Assembly (NCBI RefSeq): GCF_037975215.1
Contig: NZ_CP150239.1
Span: forward strand, 410,001 to 474,000
DNA from: Solibacillus sp. FSL R5-0449
GTDB lineage: Bacteria > Bacillota > Bacilli > Bacillales_A > Planococcaceae
Length of the DNA: 64,000 bases
Direction of reading: 5' to 3'
The position numbers and the translations under genes are program-made. A model generated the notes under the pieces. The model had not been told where the DNA came from and did not search any database. It was given only the letters and a program-made list of their open reading frames with translations. This document shows positions 5,552-36,838 of this stretch, piece after piece; within the stretch, counting starts at the first letter, position 1, and every line of letters begins with the position of its first letter.

Positions 5552-7120
5552 ATGAAAAAAGTTTTTAGTTTATTATTAGTGTTTATTCTAGCTGTATCCA
5601 CGATGTTATATGCTTCACCAACAAGTGCGGAACAAGTGTTTACTGATGTACCGCCAAAGCATAGTAACTATCAGGATATAGCTTATTTATTGAATAAAGG
5701 GATTATTAGTGCCGACAAAAAGACGTACGGTGTAAAAGATATTGTGACGCGTGAAGAAGTAGCGGTCATGGTGGCAAAAGCTGTCGGTCTTGATGGGACA
5801 CAGCGAGCGACAAAATTTAAAGATGTTCCGAAGTCACATAAAAACAGCGGATATATTCAATCAGCTGTAGAAGCCGGCATCATTAACGGCTATACGGACG
5901 GCACATTCAAGCCGACGACAAAAGTGACGCGTGGTCATATGGCAGCATTTATTGCACGCGCATTTGATTTACCTACTGGCACGAAAACATTTAAAGATGT
6001 AAAAAAAGGGCATACAGCATATGAAGCAGTGAGCCAACTAGCTGCCGCAAAAATTACTACTGGTTATGAAGACGGTACATTCAAGCCTGCGAATAATTTA
6101 ACACGTGCTCATATTTCCGCGTTTTTAGCACGCGCGGTGAAGTATCAGGAAAGCTTAGGGTCAACATCTTCTAAATTGAATGTCCACTTTTTAGATGTTG
6201 GACAAGGTGACTCGATTTTTGTTCAAGCACCAAATGGCAAAACAATGCTTATTGATGCAGGGACGAAAGAATACGGCAGCACGGTTGTTGCTTATTTGAA
6301 ATCTAAAAATGTGAAGAAGCTTGATTATGTAGTAGCAACACATCCGGATGCCGATCATATCGGTGGATTAGCAGCAGTACTGGAAAGCTTTACGGTTGGA
6401 GAATTTATTAACAGCGGAAAAGTCCATACAACAGCAACGTATGAAAACTTACTGAAGATGGTAGTCGAGAAAAAAATTCCGTATACAGAGCCGAAAGTAG
6501 GCGACTTGATTTCATTGGATTCAAATGTGAAAACTCAAGTTTTAGCTGTCAATGCGCAGGCAAGTGATATGAATGATGCTTCGATCGTATTAAAACTGAC
6601 CTATCAAAACATTTCTTTCTTATTGATGGGCGATGCGGATGCAGGAATCGAGGATCAAATTGCGAAGAAATATGATGTTTCCGCAACGATTTTAAAAGCG
6701 GGTCATCACGGTTCAAGCTCAAGTAGCTCGCTTGCATTTTTGCAGAAGGTAAATCCGAAAGCGGTTATTTTAAGTTATGGAGAGGGCAACAGCTATGGCC
6801 ATCCGCATAAAGAAGTGATTACAAATATTAAAACGGTTGGTACAAAAGCTTACTCAACTGCACAGGATGGTACAATTGTTGTGACAACGAACGGTCAATC
6901 TTACTCAATTAGTGCAAAAGAGTTTATCGTACCCAATACGGCACCTGAACAACCAAAAGGTGATGTGAATTCGGGGACGTATGTTATTCCTGGCGCACCG
7001 ACTGCATTTAAAAACTGTACAGAAATGCGAGTTTATTATCCGAAAGGTGTCAGCTCATCGCATCCCGCTTATGCAACAGCAAGAGACGGCGATAAAGATG
7101 GCTGGGCTTGTGAATTATAA
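5552..7120 (+). CDS. Surface-anchored SLH / ComEC-like metallo-beta-lactamase / Excalibur protein
   Basis: The 522-residue exported protein has a signal peptide (1-26, cleavage after TSA). Three SLH repeats follow (about 29-71, 88-132, 147-190), each with the TRxxxAxxxARA-type core that binds pyruvylated secondary cell-wall polymer. Residues about 209-455 are a metallo-beta-lactamase-fold domain of the type found at the C-terminus of ComEC: FLDVGQGDS, HPDADHIGG (H264, D266, D268, H269), LLMGDAD and GHHGSS. The C-terminus (485-522) is an Excalibur calcium-binding domain with C489, the acidic loop DGDKDGWACE and C520. The likely role is a cell-surface hydrolase, perhaps a nuclease or phosphodiesterase; the substrate is unknown. 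A terminator follows; it is monocistronic. Confidence 0.92.
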   Translation: MKKVFSLLLVFILAVSTMLYASPTSAEQVFTDVPPKHSNYQDIAYLLNKGIISADKKTYGVKDIVTREEVAVMVAKAVGLDGTQRATKFKDVPKSHKNSGYIQSAVEAGIINGYTDGTFKPTTKVTRGHMAAFIARAFDLPTGTKTFKDVKKGHTAYEAVSQLAAAKITTGYEDGTFKPANNLTRAHISAFLARAVKYQESLGSTSSKLNVHFLDVGQGDSIFVQAPNGKTMLIDAGTKEYGSTVVAYLKSKNVKKLDYVVATHPDADHIGGLAAVLESFTVGEFINSGKVHTTATYENLLKMVVEKKIPYTEPKVGDLISLDSNVKTQVLAVNAQASDMNDASIVLKLTYQNISFLLMGDADAGIEDQIAKKYDVSATILKAGHHGSSSSSSLAFLQKVNPKAVILSYGEGNSYGHPHKEVITNIKTVGTKAYSTAQDGTIVVTTNGQSYSISAKEFIVPNTAPEQPKGDVNSGTYVIPGAPTAFKNCTEMRVYYPKGVSSSHPAYATARDGDKDGWACEL

Positions 7121-7130
7121 TATACGTGAA

Positions 7131-7166
7131 GCAGCTTAAGTGAATTTTTGCTTAAGCTGTTTTTTT
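7131..7166 (+). terminator. Terminator of the SLH-MBL gene
   Basis: The stem CAGCTTAAG/CTTAAGCTG with loop TGAATTTTTG is followed by TTTTTTT. Confidence 0.9.
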
Positions 7167-7177
7167 GTTGGGCGTTT

Positions 7178-7497
7178 TTATTAGAACAATGGTATGGAAT
7201 ATTAGAAAAGTTGGAGGGGATATTAGAAGAAACTTGGGTGATATTAGAAGTTCCGCCGGTTTCAGCTGATTTGAAGCTTCATTTTCGCCTGAATACGCTG
7301 AACTTGACTTGCGATCAAAATTTATTAGAACAATTGGACCGGATATTAGAAGAAGTCCAGGAGATATTAGCTGATCGGTAGGGGATATTAGAACAAAGCG
7401 ACTACTTATTAGAACAACTCCGAATTATATTAGAAAATCGCAACTTTATTAGAACAAATAAAATTATATTAGAACTTTTCCGAACTTATTAGAACAT
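7178..7497. repeat. Intergenic 21-bp-period repeat array, locus A
   Basis: The core TATTAGAA recurs with TTAG at 7181, 7202, 7223, 7244, then 7325, 7346, 7367, 7388, 7409, 7430, 7449, 7469 and 7489. Spacing is exactly 21 for most units and 19-20 at the end; the stretch 7250-7320 is degenerate. The sequence between cores is not conserved. On the opposite strand the core reads TTCTAATA, related to the cores of the arrays at 20798 and 61787. The stretch contains no gene; an open frame here simply reads the 21-base period as a 7-residue ILE repeat. Confidence 0.8.
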
Positions 7498-7821: not shown

Positions 7822-9123
7822 TTACTGAACGCGGGCAAACCCGAATCCTGAAGCGTAGTCATCGCCTGTACCTGCACCGTAACCGCCTTTAATGTCTACA
7901 GCTTTTGCACGTGTTTGTAAGTTCGAGCGCAGTTGCGTGTGAGACCAAGACGGGTTTTGAGCCCAAATTTTTGCAGCTAAACCTGATACGTGAGGTGTAG
8001 CCATCGATGTACCGCTAATTGTGTTATAGCCACCGTTATACCATGTAGAGTAAATAGCTGAACCAGGGGCTGAAATTTCGATATCACCTTGCTGGATGAC
8101 ATAGTCGCCAGCAGTAGAAGCGTATCCGCGTGAAGAGTAGTCAGCTACACGGTAAGTTCCGTTTTGCTGTACATTTTCCAGTGCAGCAACCGCAATGGCA
8201 TTCGGTAATGCACCTGGATAACCGATTGATCCTTGAGAATAACCTGAGTTACCAGCAGCCGCAACAACAAGTACGCCTTTGCTGTATGCATAGTTAACAG
8301 CACTTGAAATTAGGCTGTTGTTCGCTGAAGAACCTAATGACATGTTGATGACTGTTTTCGTTCTAGTCGATGTTGCTTGGTCAGCCGCATGACGGATTGC
8401 AGCAGCAATGTCATCTGAGTAACCAGAACCGCTGTCTGTTAACACTTTGTATGCCCAAAGATCTGCATCTGGAGCAACACCGTAAACGCCGCCTCGGTCG
8501 CTACCGCCATCAGCCAATGCTGAACCGGCAACATGCGTACCGTGGCCGTTTCTGTCAGTACAGCTATTGTTTACGACAGTTGTCGCTGTTGTGAAGTCTT
8601 TACATTGTTCCACATTATTGGCTAGGTCAGGGTGGGAAGTGTTTACTCCTGTATCAAGTACAGCGATATTTACGCCGCTTCCTCCAGATGTAGATGTTAA
8701 TGAACTATTGTTATAAATCGCTTTAATTCCCCATGGTACTTGCTGGGAAGCTCTTGCGAAAGCTGATGCATCCGGTGTTCTTTCTTCCACTGTATAATCC
8801 TGTCCCAATTCAAAATTGGTCGGATCTAATGAAACGACAGGAACTTTTGTCACAGTGAAATTTTTATTCTTTTGTAGTGCTTGGAATTGCTTTTCATTCA
8901 TTTCCGTTGAAAATCCGTTCTCTGTTAATTCCCAACGAGCTGAATATTGTGCTTTTGCTGATTGTTTAGCAGACTGATTGTTTGCTTCAACGTACACACG
9001 GAACTTTTCCTGTCCGACATTGTTTGCCGAATTGTCTTCACTACCTAAAGTAGCCGCTTGTGCCGGACTCATTAATGATCCTGCAATTAAAAGACTAAAT
9101 AATGTACTCTTTACCTTTTTCAT
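7822..9123 (-). CDS. Secreted subtilisin-like serine protease (S8)
   Basis: A 433-residue preproprotein. The signal peptide is 1-23 (ending AQA). The propeptide, an I9-type intramolecular chaperone, spans about 40-115. The peptidase domain spans about 128-433. The catalytic triad is complete: D157 in AVLDTGVNTSHPDL, H194 in NGHGTHVAGS and S373 in SGTSMATPHVSG, with oxyanion N292 in AAAGNSG. Two cysteines between the D and H motifs (C174, C188) may form a disulfide, as in several cold-adapted Bacillaceae subtilisins. The GGGGTC-type ribosome site (AAAAGGGG) precedes the ATG. It is divergent from the RRNPP regulator at 9256, with palindromes in the shared region, so it is the obvious candidate target of that regulator. 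Confidence 0.95.
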   Translation of the reverse strand: MKKVKSTLFSLLIAGSLMSPAQAATLGSEDNSANNVGQEKFRVYVEANNQSAKQSAKAQYSARWELTENGFSTEMNEKQFQALQKNKNFTVTKVPVVSLDPTNFELGQDYTVEERTPDASAFARASQQVPWGIKAIYNNSSLTSTSGGSGVNIAVLDTGVNTSHPDLANNVEQCKDFTTATTVVNNSCTDRNGHGTHVAGSALADGGSDRGGVYGVAPDADLWAYKVLTDSGSGYSDDIAAAIRHAADQATSTRTKTVINMSLGSSANNSLISSAVNYAYSKGVLVVAAAGNSGYSQGSIGYPGALPNAIAVAALENVQQNGTYRVADYSSRGYASTAGDYVIQQGDIEISAPGSAIYSTWYNGGYNTISGTSMATPHVSGLAAKIWAQNPSWSHTQLRSNLQTRAKAVDIKGGYGAGTGDDYASGFGFARVQ

Positions 9124-9161: not shown

Positions 9162-9187
9162 ATTGAATTTATCACATTACTAGTTTT

Positions 9188-9216
9188 TTGATTATTGGGA
9201 AAATATTGAGTATACT
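9188..9216 (+). promoter_or_regulatory. Promoter of the RRNPP-type regulator
   Basis: -35 TTGATT (9188-9193), 17-bp spacer, -10 TATACT (9211-9216): a good sigma-A promoter about 40 bases before the ATG. Confidence 0.65.
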
Positions 9217-9255: not shown

Positions 9256-10470
9256 ATGAAAATAGGTTCTTTAATAAAGTACTATCGTACGAAGCTGGGA
9301 ATGACTCAAAATGAGGTAGCAGCGGGGATTTGCTCAATTCCACATTTAAGTAAAATAGAAAACAACAATAAAGAGGCAAACTGTGAGACAATTCGCCTGA
9401 TCTTGGAACGCTTGAATATTAATAGCCAAGACGTCGAAAATAGCGAACAGCATATCACAAAGTTATTGAAAGACTTACAAAAACAGATCAATTATCTAGA
9501 AAATGAAAAAGCTAATGAGACAATGGACCGATTAAAAGAGTATGAAGAAATTATTGGCTTTACGGAATCGGTCTATTTATATGAACTTTATAAATTACGT
9601 TACTATGTTTTTATTAACGAATATAAATTGGCGGAACAACAGTTGAAATGGCTAAGTGCCCATCGTCAAAATTTTTCCCAACATGAGAGATATTTACATT
9701 CCTACTGTTATGCGTTAGTTTTATTAACAAGAGGAAAATATGCGGAAGCCGCTGTACAACTCACTACTATACTTCAGACAAATCCGGAACTGGGGTCACT
9801 GGAAGGGGAGTTTTACTATCACTTTTCATTAATAAAAGGACGGCTTGATGAACCAAGCCAGGCAATTATTTATGGGAGAAAAGCACTGCATTTTTATAAA
9901 GATCAGTTTAATTTTAAGCGTATTATTTATACGTCGATGTCACTCGCTCTTTATTACGCGCAGGGTAAAGTGTTTCATGAAGCAATCGAAATTTATGATC
10001 ATCTCCTGAGAAATGTTGAACTGATGCAACAGCAGCAGTTACTGCCTGCAATCTACCATAATCTTGGGGATTTACATCAAATGAGAGGCGAATATGAAAG
10101 TGCCCTCGTTTACTTTGAGAAAAGTGCTTCGTTAATGGAAAATGACAGCGATAACTATCTATTTTGTTTATATAATTTGGGCATGACGCAATTCCGTCTT
10201 AATCAAAAGCAAGAAAGCCTCAAAACTTTTACTATTTTAAAGGAAGAAGCAAAAAGTAAGAGAAAAGTAAGTTTTAATCTATTTGCTTCTTTTTATTTAT
10301 ATTTGCTAGGTGGACAAGAAAAGAAAGCGATGGAATTTTTGGAGGGGAGGTTAATTCCGTTCACGGCAAACAGTGAAGAATTTAAAGAAATGCACCAGCA
10401 GTTTTCTTATTTATTGGGTGAGTACTACCGGCAAGAAAAGAAGTTTGAAAAAGCAATCCAATTCATTTAA
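9256..10470 (+). CDS. RRNPP-type quorum-sensing regulator (HTH plus TPR), NprR/PlcR-like
   Basis: A 404-residue protein. Residues about 5-58 are an XRE-type helix-turn-helix (IKYYRTKLGMTQNEVAAG, then PHLSKIEN), and about 100-404 are tetratricopeptide-like repeats (for example HNLGDLHQMRGEYESALVYF). This is the architecture of NprR, PlcR and other RRNPP receptors, in which the TPR domain binds a short re-imported peptide and switches DNA binding. The length is close to NprR. The strongest support is the 29-codon exported-peptide gene starting 20 bases after its stop, the usual receptor-peptide arrangement. It is divergent from the secreted subtilase. It could instead be an orphan XRE-TPR regulator if the peptide were inactive. 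Confidence 0.88.
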   Translation: MKIGSLIKYYRTKLGMTQNEVAAGICSIPHLSKIENNNKEANCETIRLILERLNINSQDVENSEQHITKLLKDLQKQINYLENEKANETMDRLKEYEEIIGFTESVYLYELYKLRYYVFINEYKLAEQQLKWLSAHRQNFSQHERYLHSYCYALVLLTRGKYAEAAVQLTTILQTNPELGSLEGEFYYHFSLIKGRLDEPSQAIIYGRKALHFYKDQFNFKRIIYTSMSLALYYAQGKVFHEAIEIYDHLLRNVELMQQQQLLPAIYHNLGDLHQMRGEYESALVYFEKSASLMENDSDNYLFCLYNLGMTQFRLNQKQESLKTFTILKEEAKSKRKVSFNLFASFYLYLLGGQEKKAMEFLEGRLIPFTANSEEFKEMHQQFSYLLGEYYRQEKKFEKAIQFI

Positions 10471-10490
10471 TTATAAAGGAGACGAGGAAT

Positions 10491-10580
10491 ATGAAGAAAA
10501 ACGTTAAGTTATCGCTATTATTATTAAGTGTGGCATTGGTGACATTGTCTATCCCAATTTATCCCCCAGTTTTATCATAA
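10491..10580 (+). CDS. Putative signalling propeptide of the RRNPP system
   Basis: A 29-codon gene just downstream of the HTH-TPR regulator, with AAAGGAG 9 bases before the ATG and a terminator after the stop. It begins MKKNVKLSLLLLSVALV, a basic N-terminus followed by a hydrophobic Sec-type segment. It ends IPIYPPVLS, a short non-hydrophobic tail. This is the layout of PapR, NprX and Phr precursors: export, processing, and re-import of a 5-8-residue C-terminal peptide through an oligopeptide permease. The mature peptide would lie in the Pro-rich tail, a sequence I do not recognise from known systems. Confidence rests on position, ribosome site and composition. Confidence 0.75.
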   Translation: MKKNVKLSLLLLSVALVTLSIPIYPPVLS

Positions 10581-10583
10581 TAT

Positions 10584-10628
10584 AAAAACGCCATTCAGAA
10601 GCTTACTCAAGCGGCTGGATGGCGTTTT
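10584..10628. terminator. Bidirectional terminator
   Basis: The stem AAAACGCCAT...ATGGCGTTTT has further imperfect pairing inside. It ends the regulator/peptide operon (+) and the DUF779 gene (-). Confidence 0.85.
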
Positions 10629-10959: not shown

Positions 10960-11040
10960 ATAAAAAAGACCTCCTAACAAATTCAGTTTGAAAAGGCTGC
11001 GGACGTTCGAGAATTCAAATAAGTGTCAAAACAGAGCGGC

Positions 11041-11166
11041 GCGGAGTGGAGGGGCTGACTTCTAGGGGATCAGCGTGCGCGGAAAATCCCTGTTGCTCCT
11101 GCGGTTACTCGTCGCAAAGCTTTTATCAAAGCTTTGGAGCCACGCCCCCAGAAAAGCATGCCCCGC
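11041..11166 (-). repeat. GC-rich intergenic repeat element, copy 1
   Basis: A GC-rich block in an AT-rich genome. Read on the minus strand it contains GCTTTTCTGGGGGCGTGGC, an inner hairpin (AAAGCTTT...AAAGCTTT) and CCCCTAGAAGTCAGCCCC. The same outline recurs at 24030-24144 in the other orientation. It resembles the widespread Bacillales intergenic repeat that begins GCGGACGCTTTCCGCGGGC. No gene lies inside. It sits between the DUF779 and aldehyde dehydrogenase genes. Confidence 0.6.
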
Positions 11167-11244
11167 AACGCAGCAGAGCGGACCAGATTCGACAAGTCAT
11201 CATTCAATTTTCATAAAGCCCACAGCAACCCCAATTAAAATATT

Positions 11245-24029: not shown

Positions 24030-24144
24030 GCGGACGCTTTCTGGGGGCGTGAGGCCGACATGAAGTCGGTCACAAAAGCGTTGCCACAGGACGTGGCGTA
24101 CTTAGCTTTTGTTCCCCTGTAGTCTCAGGCGTCGCCACCTACAC
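24030..24144 (+). repeat. GC-rich intergenic repeat element, copy 2
   Basis: Begins GCGGACGCTTTCTGGGGGCG, contains an inner hairpin (GCCGAC...GTCGGT) and ends around CCCCTGTAGTCTCAGGCG. The same outline with a different inner hairpin occurs at 11041-11166 on the opposite strand. It resembles a dispersed Bacillales intergenic repeat. It lies between the ABC-F and SE1832-like genes. Confidence 0.65.
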
Positions 24145-36465: not shown

Positions 36466-36503
36466 CTATAAAAAGAAGCATACCCAATAGAGTATGCTTC
36501 TTG
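36466..36503 (-). terminator. Terminator of the cold-shock gene
   Basis: The stem AAGAAGCATAC/GTATGCTTCTT has a T run on the minus strand. Confidence 0.9.
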
Positions 36504-36534
36504 CAACTAACTATGTGAACTTAATTCCTAAGAA

Positions 36535-36735
36535 TTAAAGTTTTGTAACGTTAGTAGCTTGTGGGCCACGGTTGCCTTCTTCAACGTCGAATTCAACTTT
36601 TTGACCTTCGTCTAAAGTTTTGAAACCTTCGCCTTGGATAGCTGAGAAGTGTACGAATACATCGTTACCGCCTTCAACTTCGATGAAACCGAAACCTTTT
36701 TCTGAGTTAAACCATTTTACTGTACCTTGTTGCAT
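36535..36735 (-). CDS. Cold-shock protein (CspA family)
   Basis: A 66-residue single cold-shock domain with RNP1 KGFGFIEV and RNP2 VFVHF, the usual full length. It binds single-stranded RNA/DNA and melts structures at low temperature. GGAGG lies 9 bases before the ATG. The leader contains a large hairpin (36787-36838) followed by T residues, suggesting structural control of its own mRNA. Confidence 0.97.
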
Positions 36736-36786
36736 GAGAGAAAACCTCCAAAAAATTAATTAATTGAATTGCTAAATGTATAAAAA

Positions 36787-36838
36787 ATTCACACATTAAA
36801 AAAGGGAGCGTACACGTTCACTTTTTTAATATGTGAAT
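36787..36838 (-). promoter_or_regulatory. Large hairpin in the cold-shock gene leader
   Basis: An 18-bp stem ATTCACACATTAAAAAAG / CTTTTTTAATATGTGAAT (one G-T pair) continues inward through GAGCGT/ACGTTC. On the minus strand it is followed by TTTTTTATAC, so it can act as a terminator or attenuator 50-100 bases before the csp start codon. Confidence 0.6.

Follow-up and report, generated by a model that had tools for sequence, protein, structure and literature searches.

In the NprR/NprX system of the Bacillus cereus group, a receptor with an HTH domain and TPR repeats is paired with a small pro-peptide and controls a secreted protease, the product of the neutral protease gene nprA. NprR is described as required for neutral protease expression (PMC7756075), and its signal is given as SSKPDIVG (PMC4970707). 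The receptor is reported from 21 genera, with repeats in all 17 of the atypically long NprR propeptides (PMC9765709), and tandem signal copies in one precursor are described in the text of PMC11343458 as well. PlcR/PapR also consists of an HTH and TPR activator and a re-imported peptide, with PapR7 (ADLPFEF) as the signal. The Rap proteins of the Rap/Phr systems have no HTH domain. They have a TPR groove with a conserved asparagine, which in RapF (N227) is described as strictly conserved in the superfamily and as holding the peptide backbone (PMC3601957). RopB, a regulator linked to the protease SpeB, is the described case of leaderless peptides (PMC10518010). Finally, the program RRNPP_detector has given 21 novel candidate subfamilies of receptor–propeptide pairs (PMC10075063).

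Here we describe a locus of this kind in Solibacillus sp. FSL R5-0449. It lies in a stretch of 64,000 nucleotides (the window; contig NZ_CP150239.1, positions 410,001 to 474,000), which is part of a 3.58-Mb single-contig genome. A receptor, a pro-pheromone and a secreted subtilisin very probably form a quorum-sensing module of the RRNPP kind, in which the re-imported peptide would make the receptor activate the protease promoter.

Organization of the locus

The features of the locus, in window coordinates, are as follows.

7822–9123, minus strand: secreted S8 subtilisin of the sphericase type, the probable target and a possible processing protease (Pfam, sphericase match, neighbourhood)
9166–9174, minus strand: extended −10 of the protease promoter, TGATAAATT, with the hexamer TAAATT (fixed distance from the box)
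9188–9216, plus strand: candidate promoter of the receptor (TTGATT-17-TATACT), which overlaps the box (9 of 12 matches in a consensus scan)
9194–9203, minus strand: operator-like box TTTTCCCAAT of the protease promoter (conserved upstream of S8 genes)
9256–10470, plus strand: RRNPP-type receptor and transcription factor with HTH and TPR, 404 residues (Pfam, profile match to NprR, N269)
10475–10481, plus strand: AAAGGAG, ribosome-binding site for the pro-pheromone gene (9 nt from its start codon)
10491–10580, plus strand: pro-pheromone gene, 29 codons and a stop, with the tail IPIYPPVLS (SD, PP tail in relatives, synonymous pattern)
10551–10577, plus strand: predicted signal region, the codons for IPIYPPVLS (tandem copies and tail-only genes of relatives)
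10585–10628, plus strand: terminator-like stem-loop closing the receptor–pheromone unit (folding against shuffles)

The initial annotation had described the receptor and the tiny gene as a cassette, and its coordinates and sequence hold to the base. The small gene starts 20 nt after the receptor stop codon (ATG at 10491) and is preceded by a good ribosome-binding site, as had been noted. Its product, MKKNVKLSLLLLSVALVTLSIPIYPPVLS, has no Pfam match at E ≤ 1. It begins with a basic and then a hydrophobic segment, with export predicted, and so gives the receptor the adjacent small pro-peptide gene of an RRNPP(A) system. The stem-loop after the small gene has a folding energy of −26.8 kcal/mol (z −6.71), and none of 200 shuffles was as good. 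The receptor gene and the small gene therefore look like one unit.

The receptor

The nearest named receptors are those of Solibacillus faecavium (87% identity) and S. merdavium (86%). The N-terminus of the receptor is an HTH_3 domain (residues 7–57, E 4.7e-9), as in the RRNPP(A) members other than Rap, and it is followed by TPR_12 (E 1.5e-15), TPR_2 and TPR_1, all over the Pfam cut-off. With 404 residues and TPR repeats, the protein has the size (250–500 residues, PMC10075063) and architecture described for RRNPP(A) receptors.

NprR is the best match among solved structures. A search with the receptor sequence on its own placed NprR (4gpk) at the top (E 1.1e-15), and a 67-row receptor profile gave the same structure with E 9.8e-52. 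Rap3T and RapF follow in second rank (1e-24 to 1e-23, with designed repeat proteins set aside), and the match to PlcR (2qfc) is much weaker (E 6e-9). Asn269 is kept in all 67 rows of the profile and is aligned with Asn275 of NprR, with an offset of 59 in NprR numbering that fits 12 of 12 published residues, and with Asn226 of Rap3T. From the numbering of a neighbouring tyrosine, we infer that the latter is the counterpart of RapF Asn227, the peptide-binding asparagine. Because consensus designed TPRs also have an asparagine at this position, the conservation of Asn269 supports peptide binding by the receptor but is short of proof.

There are also clear differences from NprR. The residues of NprR that contact Spo0F are given as Asp107, Tyr118, Glu188 and Tyr223 (PMC4970707). 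The equivalent positions in the receptor are Gly101, Lys113, Glu183 and Phe218, and the profile alignment shifts Asp107 to Phe102, again not an aspartate. Just one of the four contact residues is kept, and the receptor therefore seems unlikely to act as a sporulation phosphatase. A quick maximum-likelihood tree (63 rows) places it in a 54-row clade (SH-aLRT 96) separate from NprR, which forms one clade with two NprR-like rows (SH-aLRT 100); several long branches in this tree are flagged, that of NprR among them. The receptor is thus not called NprR. Assignment to an NprR subfamily was considered and rejected on the separate clade, the Spo0F contacts and the proline-rich tail IPIYPPVLS, found in place of SSKPDIVG. 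The probable targets differ as well, an S8 subtilisin gene here and the neutral protease gene nprA in NprR. The tail is also unlike PapR7. The likeness to PlcR/PapR and NprR/NprX stated in the initial annotation therefore stands for the pairing of receptor and pro-peptide, and not for the receptor itself, which is neither PlcR nor NprR proper.

Two NprR-like receptors outside the family (L187 and L188) are followed by a precursor frame with FHPPFRG, so that a PP motif is present on the NprR side too.

By sequence, this is a real RRNPP-type cassette, whose clade and peptide code were not found described in the open-access literature searched. The initial annotation had suggested that the tail may be new, and none of six tail strings was found in that literature; NprR, NprX and Lysinibacillus were not found together there either, and both absences are weak evidence. 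The candidate subfamilies of RRNPP_detector are receptor–propeptide pairs of the same kind, and the receptor clade may be among the 21. The main text of that report, figures and tables aside, does not contain Lysinibacillus, Solibacillus, Planococc- or Sporosarcina (PMC10075063).

Searches of plasmid and phage collections gave no receptor match at E 1e-30 or 1e-10. The genome has a distant HTH-TPR paralog (L002, G000:C1:1530965-1531852), which was rejected as a second cassette. A transporter-like frame comes directly after it, leaving no room for a peptide gene, and the paralog, with no visible peptide gene, is possibly an orphan receptor.

In one genus of the family (g4; L058, L059, L060 and L061), a second receptor-like gene with a degenerate start is located after the pheromone gene. 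Pfam detects no HTH domain in the three of these four genes that were scanned. They appear as if they were Rap-like partners without DNA binding that have arisen independently.

Conservation of the small gene

Two separate sets of related receptor genes were examined for a small ORF directly after the receptor, defined as an SD-preceded frame of 9–150 codons that starts within 60 nt of the receptor stop codon and has PP in its last 14 residues. The first set has 102 receptor genes from 98 genomes. It is composed of 72 genes of 68 genomes of the family, from 89 with a match, and the best-scoring 30 loci from 222 genomes with a match outside the family, in the order of Robertmurraya; second copies of one and the same genome, along with four paralogs of the window's genus (L019–L022), were left out. 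The second set is the remaining 26 core-receptor genomes of the family. Core receptors, with rows down to E 6.8e-113, are found in 92 of the 261 family genomes. Those of G092 (7.0e-113) and G083 (4.7e-109) were left out, being placed elsewhere in the receptor tree.

A small ORF with a di-proline tail is located directly after 119 of the 128 receptor genes (93 of 102 in the first set, 26 of 26 in the second). A 94th ORF of the first set that passed the filter (L060b) was rejected, its PP being internal and due to chance. No PP-tail ORF follows nine receptors of the first set. Four of these are the second receptors of genus g4, located after their pheromone gene, and the other five are those of L054, L065, L073, L177 and L186.

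The same filter accepted an ORF in only 22 of 2040 mononucleotide-shuffled regions, and the small frame is therefore more than a chance ORF. Among other long ORFs of the same loci, 5 of 137 pass, and four of these five are true pheromone genes from the entry of the partner receptor. Six genomes of the genus, including that of the window, encode the same 29 residues with synonymous differences only. In a seventh genome, the small gene has 13 synonymous base changes relative to the window and 4 that are non-synonymous.

Conservation in relatives had been proposed in the initial annotation as the check on this frame. Of the 92 core-receptor genomes of the family, 91, over nine genera, have kept the frame with its tail, as have genomes outside the family. 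The comparison supports the reading of the pair as a receptor and an adjacent pro-peptide with predicted export. The one exception, G140, has the receptor but neither a pheromone tail nor a protease at E 1e-90, and an exact box is absent over 9.5 kb.

The predicted signal region of the precursor

A leader is present in 90 of the 93 precursors of the first set, and by a simple rule of charge and hydrophobicity it is signal-like in 88 of these 90 (all except L018 and L051). The middle of the precursor is variable, and the end keeps a proline pattern, with P-x(2,3)-PP near the end in 80 of 93. In four precursors the tail is repeated. That of L018 has four copies of FPIHPPIL, and those of L044, L045 and L046 have three copies each of IPIHPPIG, all of which fit [IF]PIHPPI[GL].

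In three other relatives (L163, L165 and L174), the gene is reduced to the tail. These leaderless genes have 11–12 codons, each with an SD, and their products are MNMKAPILPPVT, MKKAPILPPVT and MKRKAPILPPIV, with the tail pattern KAPILPP[VI]. An in-frame stop is found 8 codons before the tail in L163 and 4 codons before it in L174, and in L165 the start codon used is the sole one of the open stretch. The tandem tails and the tail-only genes thus both point to the tail as the part that is active. For the window, the predicted mature peptide is approximately IPIYPPVL(S), and its ends are likewise predictions.

These features also bear on the idea that the product of the small gene is not a signal for the receptor but a short peptide, secreted or in the membrane, with a different function such as antimicrobial activity. 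Basic and hydrophobic starts are, as a matter of general knowledge, common in small hydrophobic peptides. Yet 119 of the 128 related receptors have this small gene directly after them, three relatives encode a tail of 11–12 residues with no membrane part, four repeat the tail three or four times, and the tail pattern is constant in precursors whose middle varies. Such a different function is extremely improbable, and the tail is taken here as the signal for the receptor.

A second idea is that export is of little matter, the peptide serving as an intracellular timer in the producing cell. The three receptor genomes with tail-only genes, where no leader is possible in frame, could be read as showing that export is dispensable. 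However, the leader is kept with 90 of 93 tails and nearly always passes the export rule, and the receptors of the leaderless group form one nested clade (SH-aLRT 100), so that the leader was most simply lost once. Moreover, leaderless peptides of the RopB type are described as still being secreted and taken up again (PMC10518010). We consider an intracellular timer very unlikely and retain an exported precursor as the preferred reading.

The three relatives resemble RopB/SpeB in having tail-only genes beside the receptor and a protease nearby (PMC10518010). Leaderless communication peptides are the signal alone, which is the case only in these relatives; the gene of the window has a leader and is not of that class. 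In contrast to RopB, the receptor clade here is nearest to NprR, and it holds leadered and leaderless genes together.

The subtilisin gene

The most constant partner of the receptor is the divergent subtilisin gene (7822–9123), which was absent from the initial annotation, as was its box. The protein has a Peptidase_S8 domain (Pfam, E 2.8e-54), and its residues 124–433 are aligned with residues 1–310 of 1ea7 (E 5.5e-183), covering the whole catalytic domain, which makes it a protease of the sphericase type.

The gene adjoins the receptor in 73 of the 102 loci of the first set (98 genomes and four paralogs, with flanks mostly of 1.5–2 kb). It is divergent in 31 of these, co-directional and upstream in 38, and downstream in 4, including L065, where the downstream protease is just 36% identical. 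The 29 loci with no protease in the flanks include the four paralogs, eleven lower-scoring loci (L176–L186) and L083, whose contig stops 89 nt upstream of the receptor. In the second set, the protease is beside the receptor in 26 of 26, always co-directional.

Across the 261 genomes of the family, with the protease called at E ≤ 1e-90 (88 genomes), 86 have both receptor and protease, 6 the receptor only, 2 the protease only and 167 neither. Both are thus present in 86 of the 94 genomes that have either one; these counts ignore shared descent.

The DUF779 and aldehyde dehydrogenase genes downstream were considered as module members and rejected, being found in the examined flanks only in loci of the window's genus. 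At another locus (L242, in G115), two tandem protease genes precede the receptor, each with its own exact box.

The operator-like box

In an alignment of the divergent intergenic regions, one block, TTTTG[AT]TTATTGGGAAAA, is more conserved than the rest. In the co-directional genera g13 and g17, the same box (read there as TTTTCCCAATT) is located upstream of the protease and not of the receptor. The box is thus linked to the protease, whichever of the two main gene orders applies.

In the first set, where 72 protease genes were obtained from 89 loci searched, the box is exact in 60 and has at most one mismatch in 65, compared with 1 of 3600 mononucleotide shuffles. Of the 60 exact cases, 53 have an extended −10 (TGnTA) that starts 29 nt from the start of the box; in the other 7 the spacing differs. 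In the second set, 14 of 26 genes have the exact box, all 14 with the same spacing of the extended −10, another 11 have one mismatch and L267 has two. For both sets together, the box is exact in 74 of 98 protease genes and has one mismatch in 16 more (90 of 98).

The eight genes with no box within 300 nt at one mismatch are four of genus g4, three of the leaderless group and L267. The four g4 genes have the exact box and spacing further upstream than the 300 nt searched. In the three leaderless-group loci, the box is inverted between the pheromone gene and the protease (two exact, one with one mismatch).

The full promoter pattern (box and extended −10) is found in 74 of the 92 receptor genomes and in 8 of the other 169, counted anywhere in the genome and not checked at the protease in all cases. 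The remaining 18 receptor genomes lack the exact pattern, and a reversed-pattern control is found in 6 of all 261. The genome of the window has a single full pattern (9166–9203, minus strand) and no reversed one.

These distributions are relevant to whether the box belongs to another regulator of secreted proteases and merely adjoins the receptor. Binding of the box by the receptor is a prediction, and two proteases with no box are also near other HTH-TPR genes and so do not isolate the receptor. On the other hand, many sites would be expected for a global regulator, whereas this genome has one, and the full pattern tracks the receptor across genomes. Moreover, all five genomes of genus g17 that have no protease keep the box and the extended −10, some 175–241 nt before the receptor; the box is exact in G168, G173 and G208 and has one mismatch in G175 and G187. 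Another regulator is therefore an unlikely owner of the box, and we continue with the receptor as its predicted ligand.

The two proteases with no box (L239 in G031, and L241, a second copy in G093) are not accompanied by a core receptor. They are not clean negatives, because each has a different HTH-TPR gene nearby (20–25% identity), followed by a small leadered frame with no PP tail. It is possible that receptor, signal and box were swapped together. At L240 (G089), a further protease with no core receptor, the box is present and the contig ends 113 nt beyond.

A regulon was sought in the window's genome with the long box TTTTGWTTATTGGGAAAA at up to three mismatches and was rejected. There were 38 sites, compared with 36 for the reversed control, and therefore only the exact long-box site is meaningful. 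In G178, a second, very similar site with box and extended −10 (L246, G178:C5:128680) precedes a gene with a secretion-type start, and targets beyond the protease may therefore exist. A frame near it on the opposite strand is, as we take it from its motif, carboxypeptidase-like.

The box overlaps the promoter candidate of the receptor, and autoregulation is therefore possible in the divergent arrangement. The scan behind this candidate found 6 sites, compared with a shuffle average of 6.3, and is weak alone. As a general rule, autoregulation through the box was rejected, since in the co-directional groups it is the protease, not the receptor, that keeps the box upstream.

Proposed mechanism

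The 29-residue precursor would be exported through its basic and hydrophobic leader and trimmed outside the cell to a proline-rich peptide close to the predicted signal region. Uptake would be through an oligopeptide permease; the genome has seven places over the cut-off for SBP_bac_5, the permease-type binding proteins. Inside the cell, the peptide would be bound in the TPR groove of the receptor, as in its family. The loaded receptor is predicted to bind the box in the −35 region of the protease promoter and would then activate transcription. The output would be density-dependent secretion of a sphericase-type protease. By analogy, the nearest functional parallel is the control of the neutral protease by NprR.

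The sign of this regulation could also be the opposite. The free receptor would then repress the protease promoter by occupying the −35 region, and repression would be relieved by the peptide. The position of the box is a fitting place for a repressor too, and while PlcR and NprR are described as activated by their peptides, Rap and PrgX are described as inhibited (PMC3601957). However, the promoter has an extended −10 and no good −35 hexamer, which is the shape of an activator-dependent promoter, and NprR, the nearest solved relative, is needed for expression of its protease (PMC7756075). Activation is preferred because of this promoter shape alone, and repression is a rather unlikely, though real, possibility.

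More tentatively, and with clearly less than even confidence, the variation among the relatives could be brought into one scheme. One receptor clade would use one di-proline pheromone in three formats, namely a leader with one copy, a leader with 3–4 copies, and a bare minigene of 11–12 codons produced by loss of the leader. The subtilisin under control would mature the leadered forms, giving a positive loop, and the prolines would protect the signal itself against this subtilisin. The Phr peptides include CSF. Subtilisin, Epr and Vpr are named as producers of CSF in the title of a reference of PMC11343458.

If the module is as proposed, Lysinibacillus, Solibacillus and related genera, together with relatives from the Robertmurraya order, would have a predicted signalling language for which the peptide code is clear, the target gene is named and an operator is predicted. 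A protease whose structure is solved (three sphericase entries in the PDB) would also gain a regulator. The relatives offer a natural series from a leadered pheromone to leaderless or multi-copy ones with the receptor unchanged, and this series bears on the origin of leaderless peptides.

Other features of the window

The gene at 5552–7120 encodes a protein with three SLH stretches, a metallo-β-lactamase-type domain and an Excalibur domain (Pfam). Just after it, at 7165–7445, is an array of units containing TATTAGAA, with spacings that are partly 21 nt or multiples thereof. Partial copies of the intergenic segment at 11010–11200 are found at two more places in the genome, with identities of 88% and 92%. 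The window also has the final part of an rRNA operon together with a tRNA cluster (1–2824), a Bacillaceae-1 sRNA (24055–24121) and a cspA thermoregulator (36471–36797).
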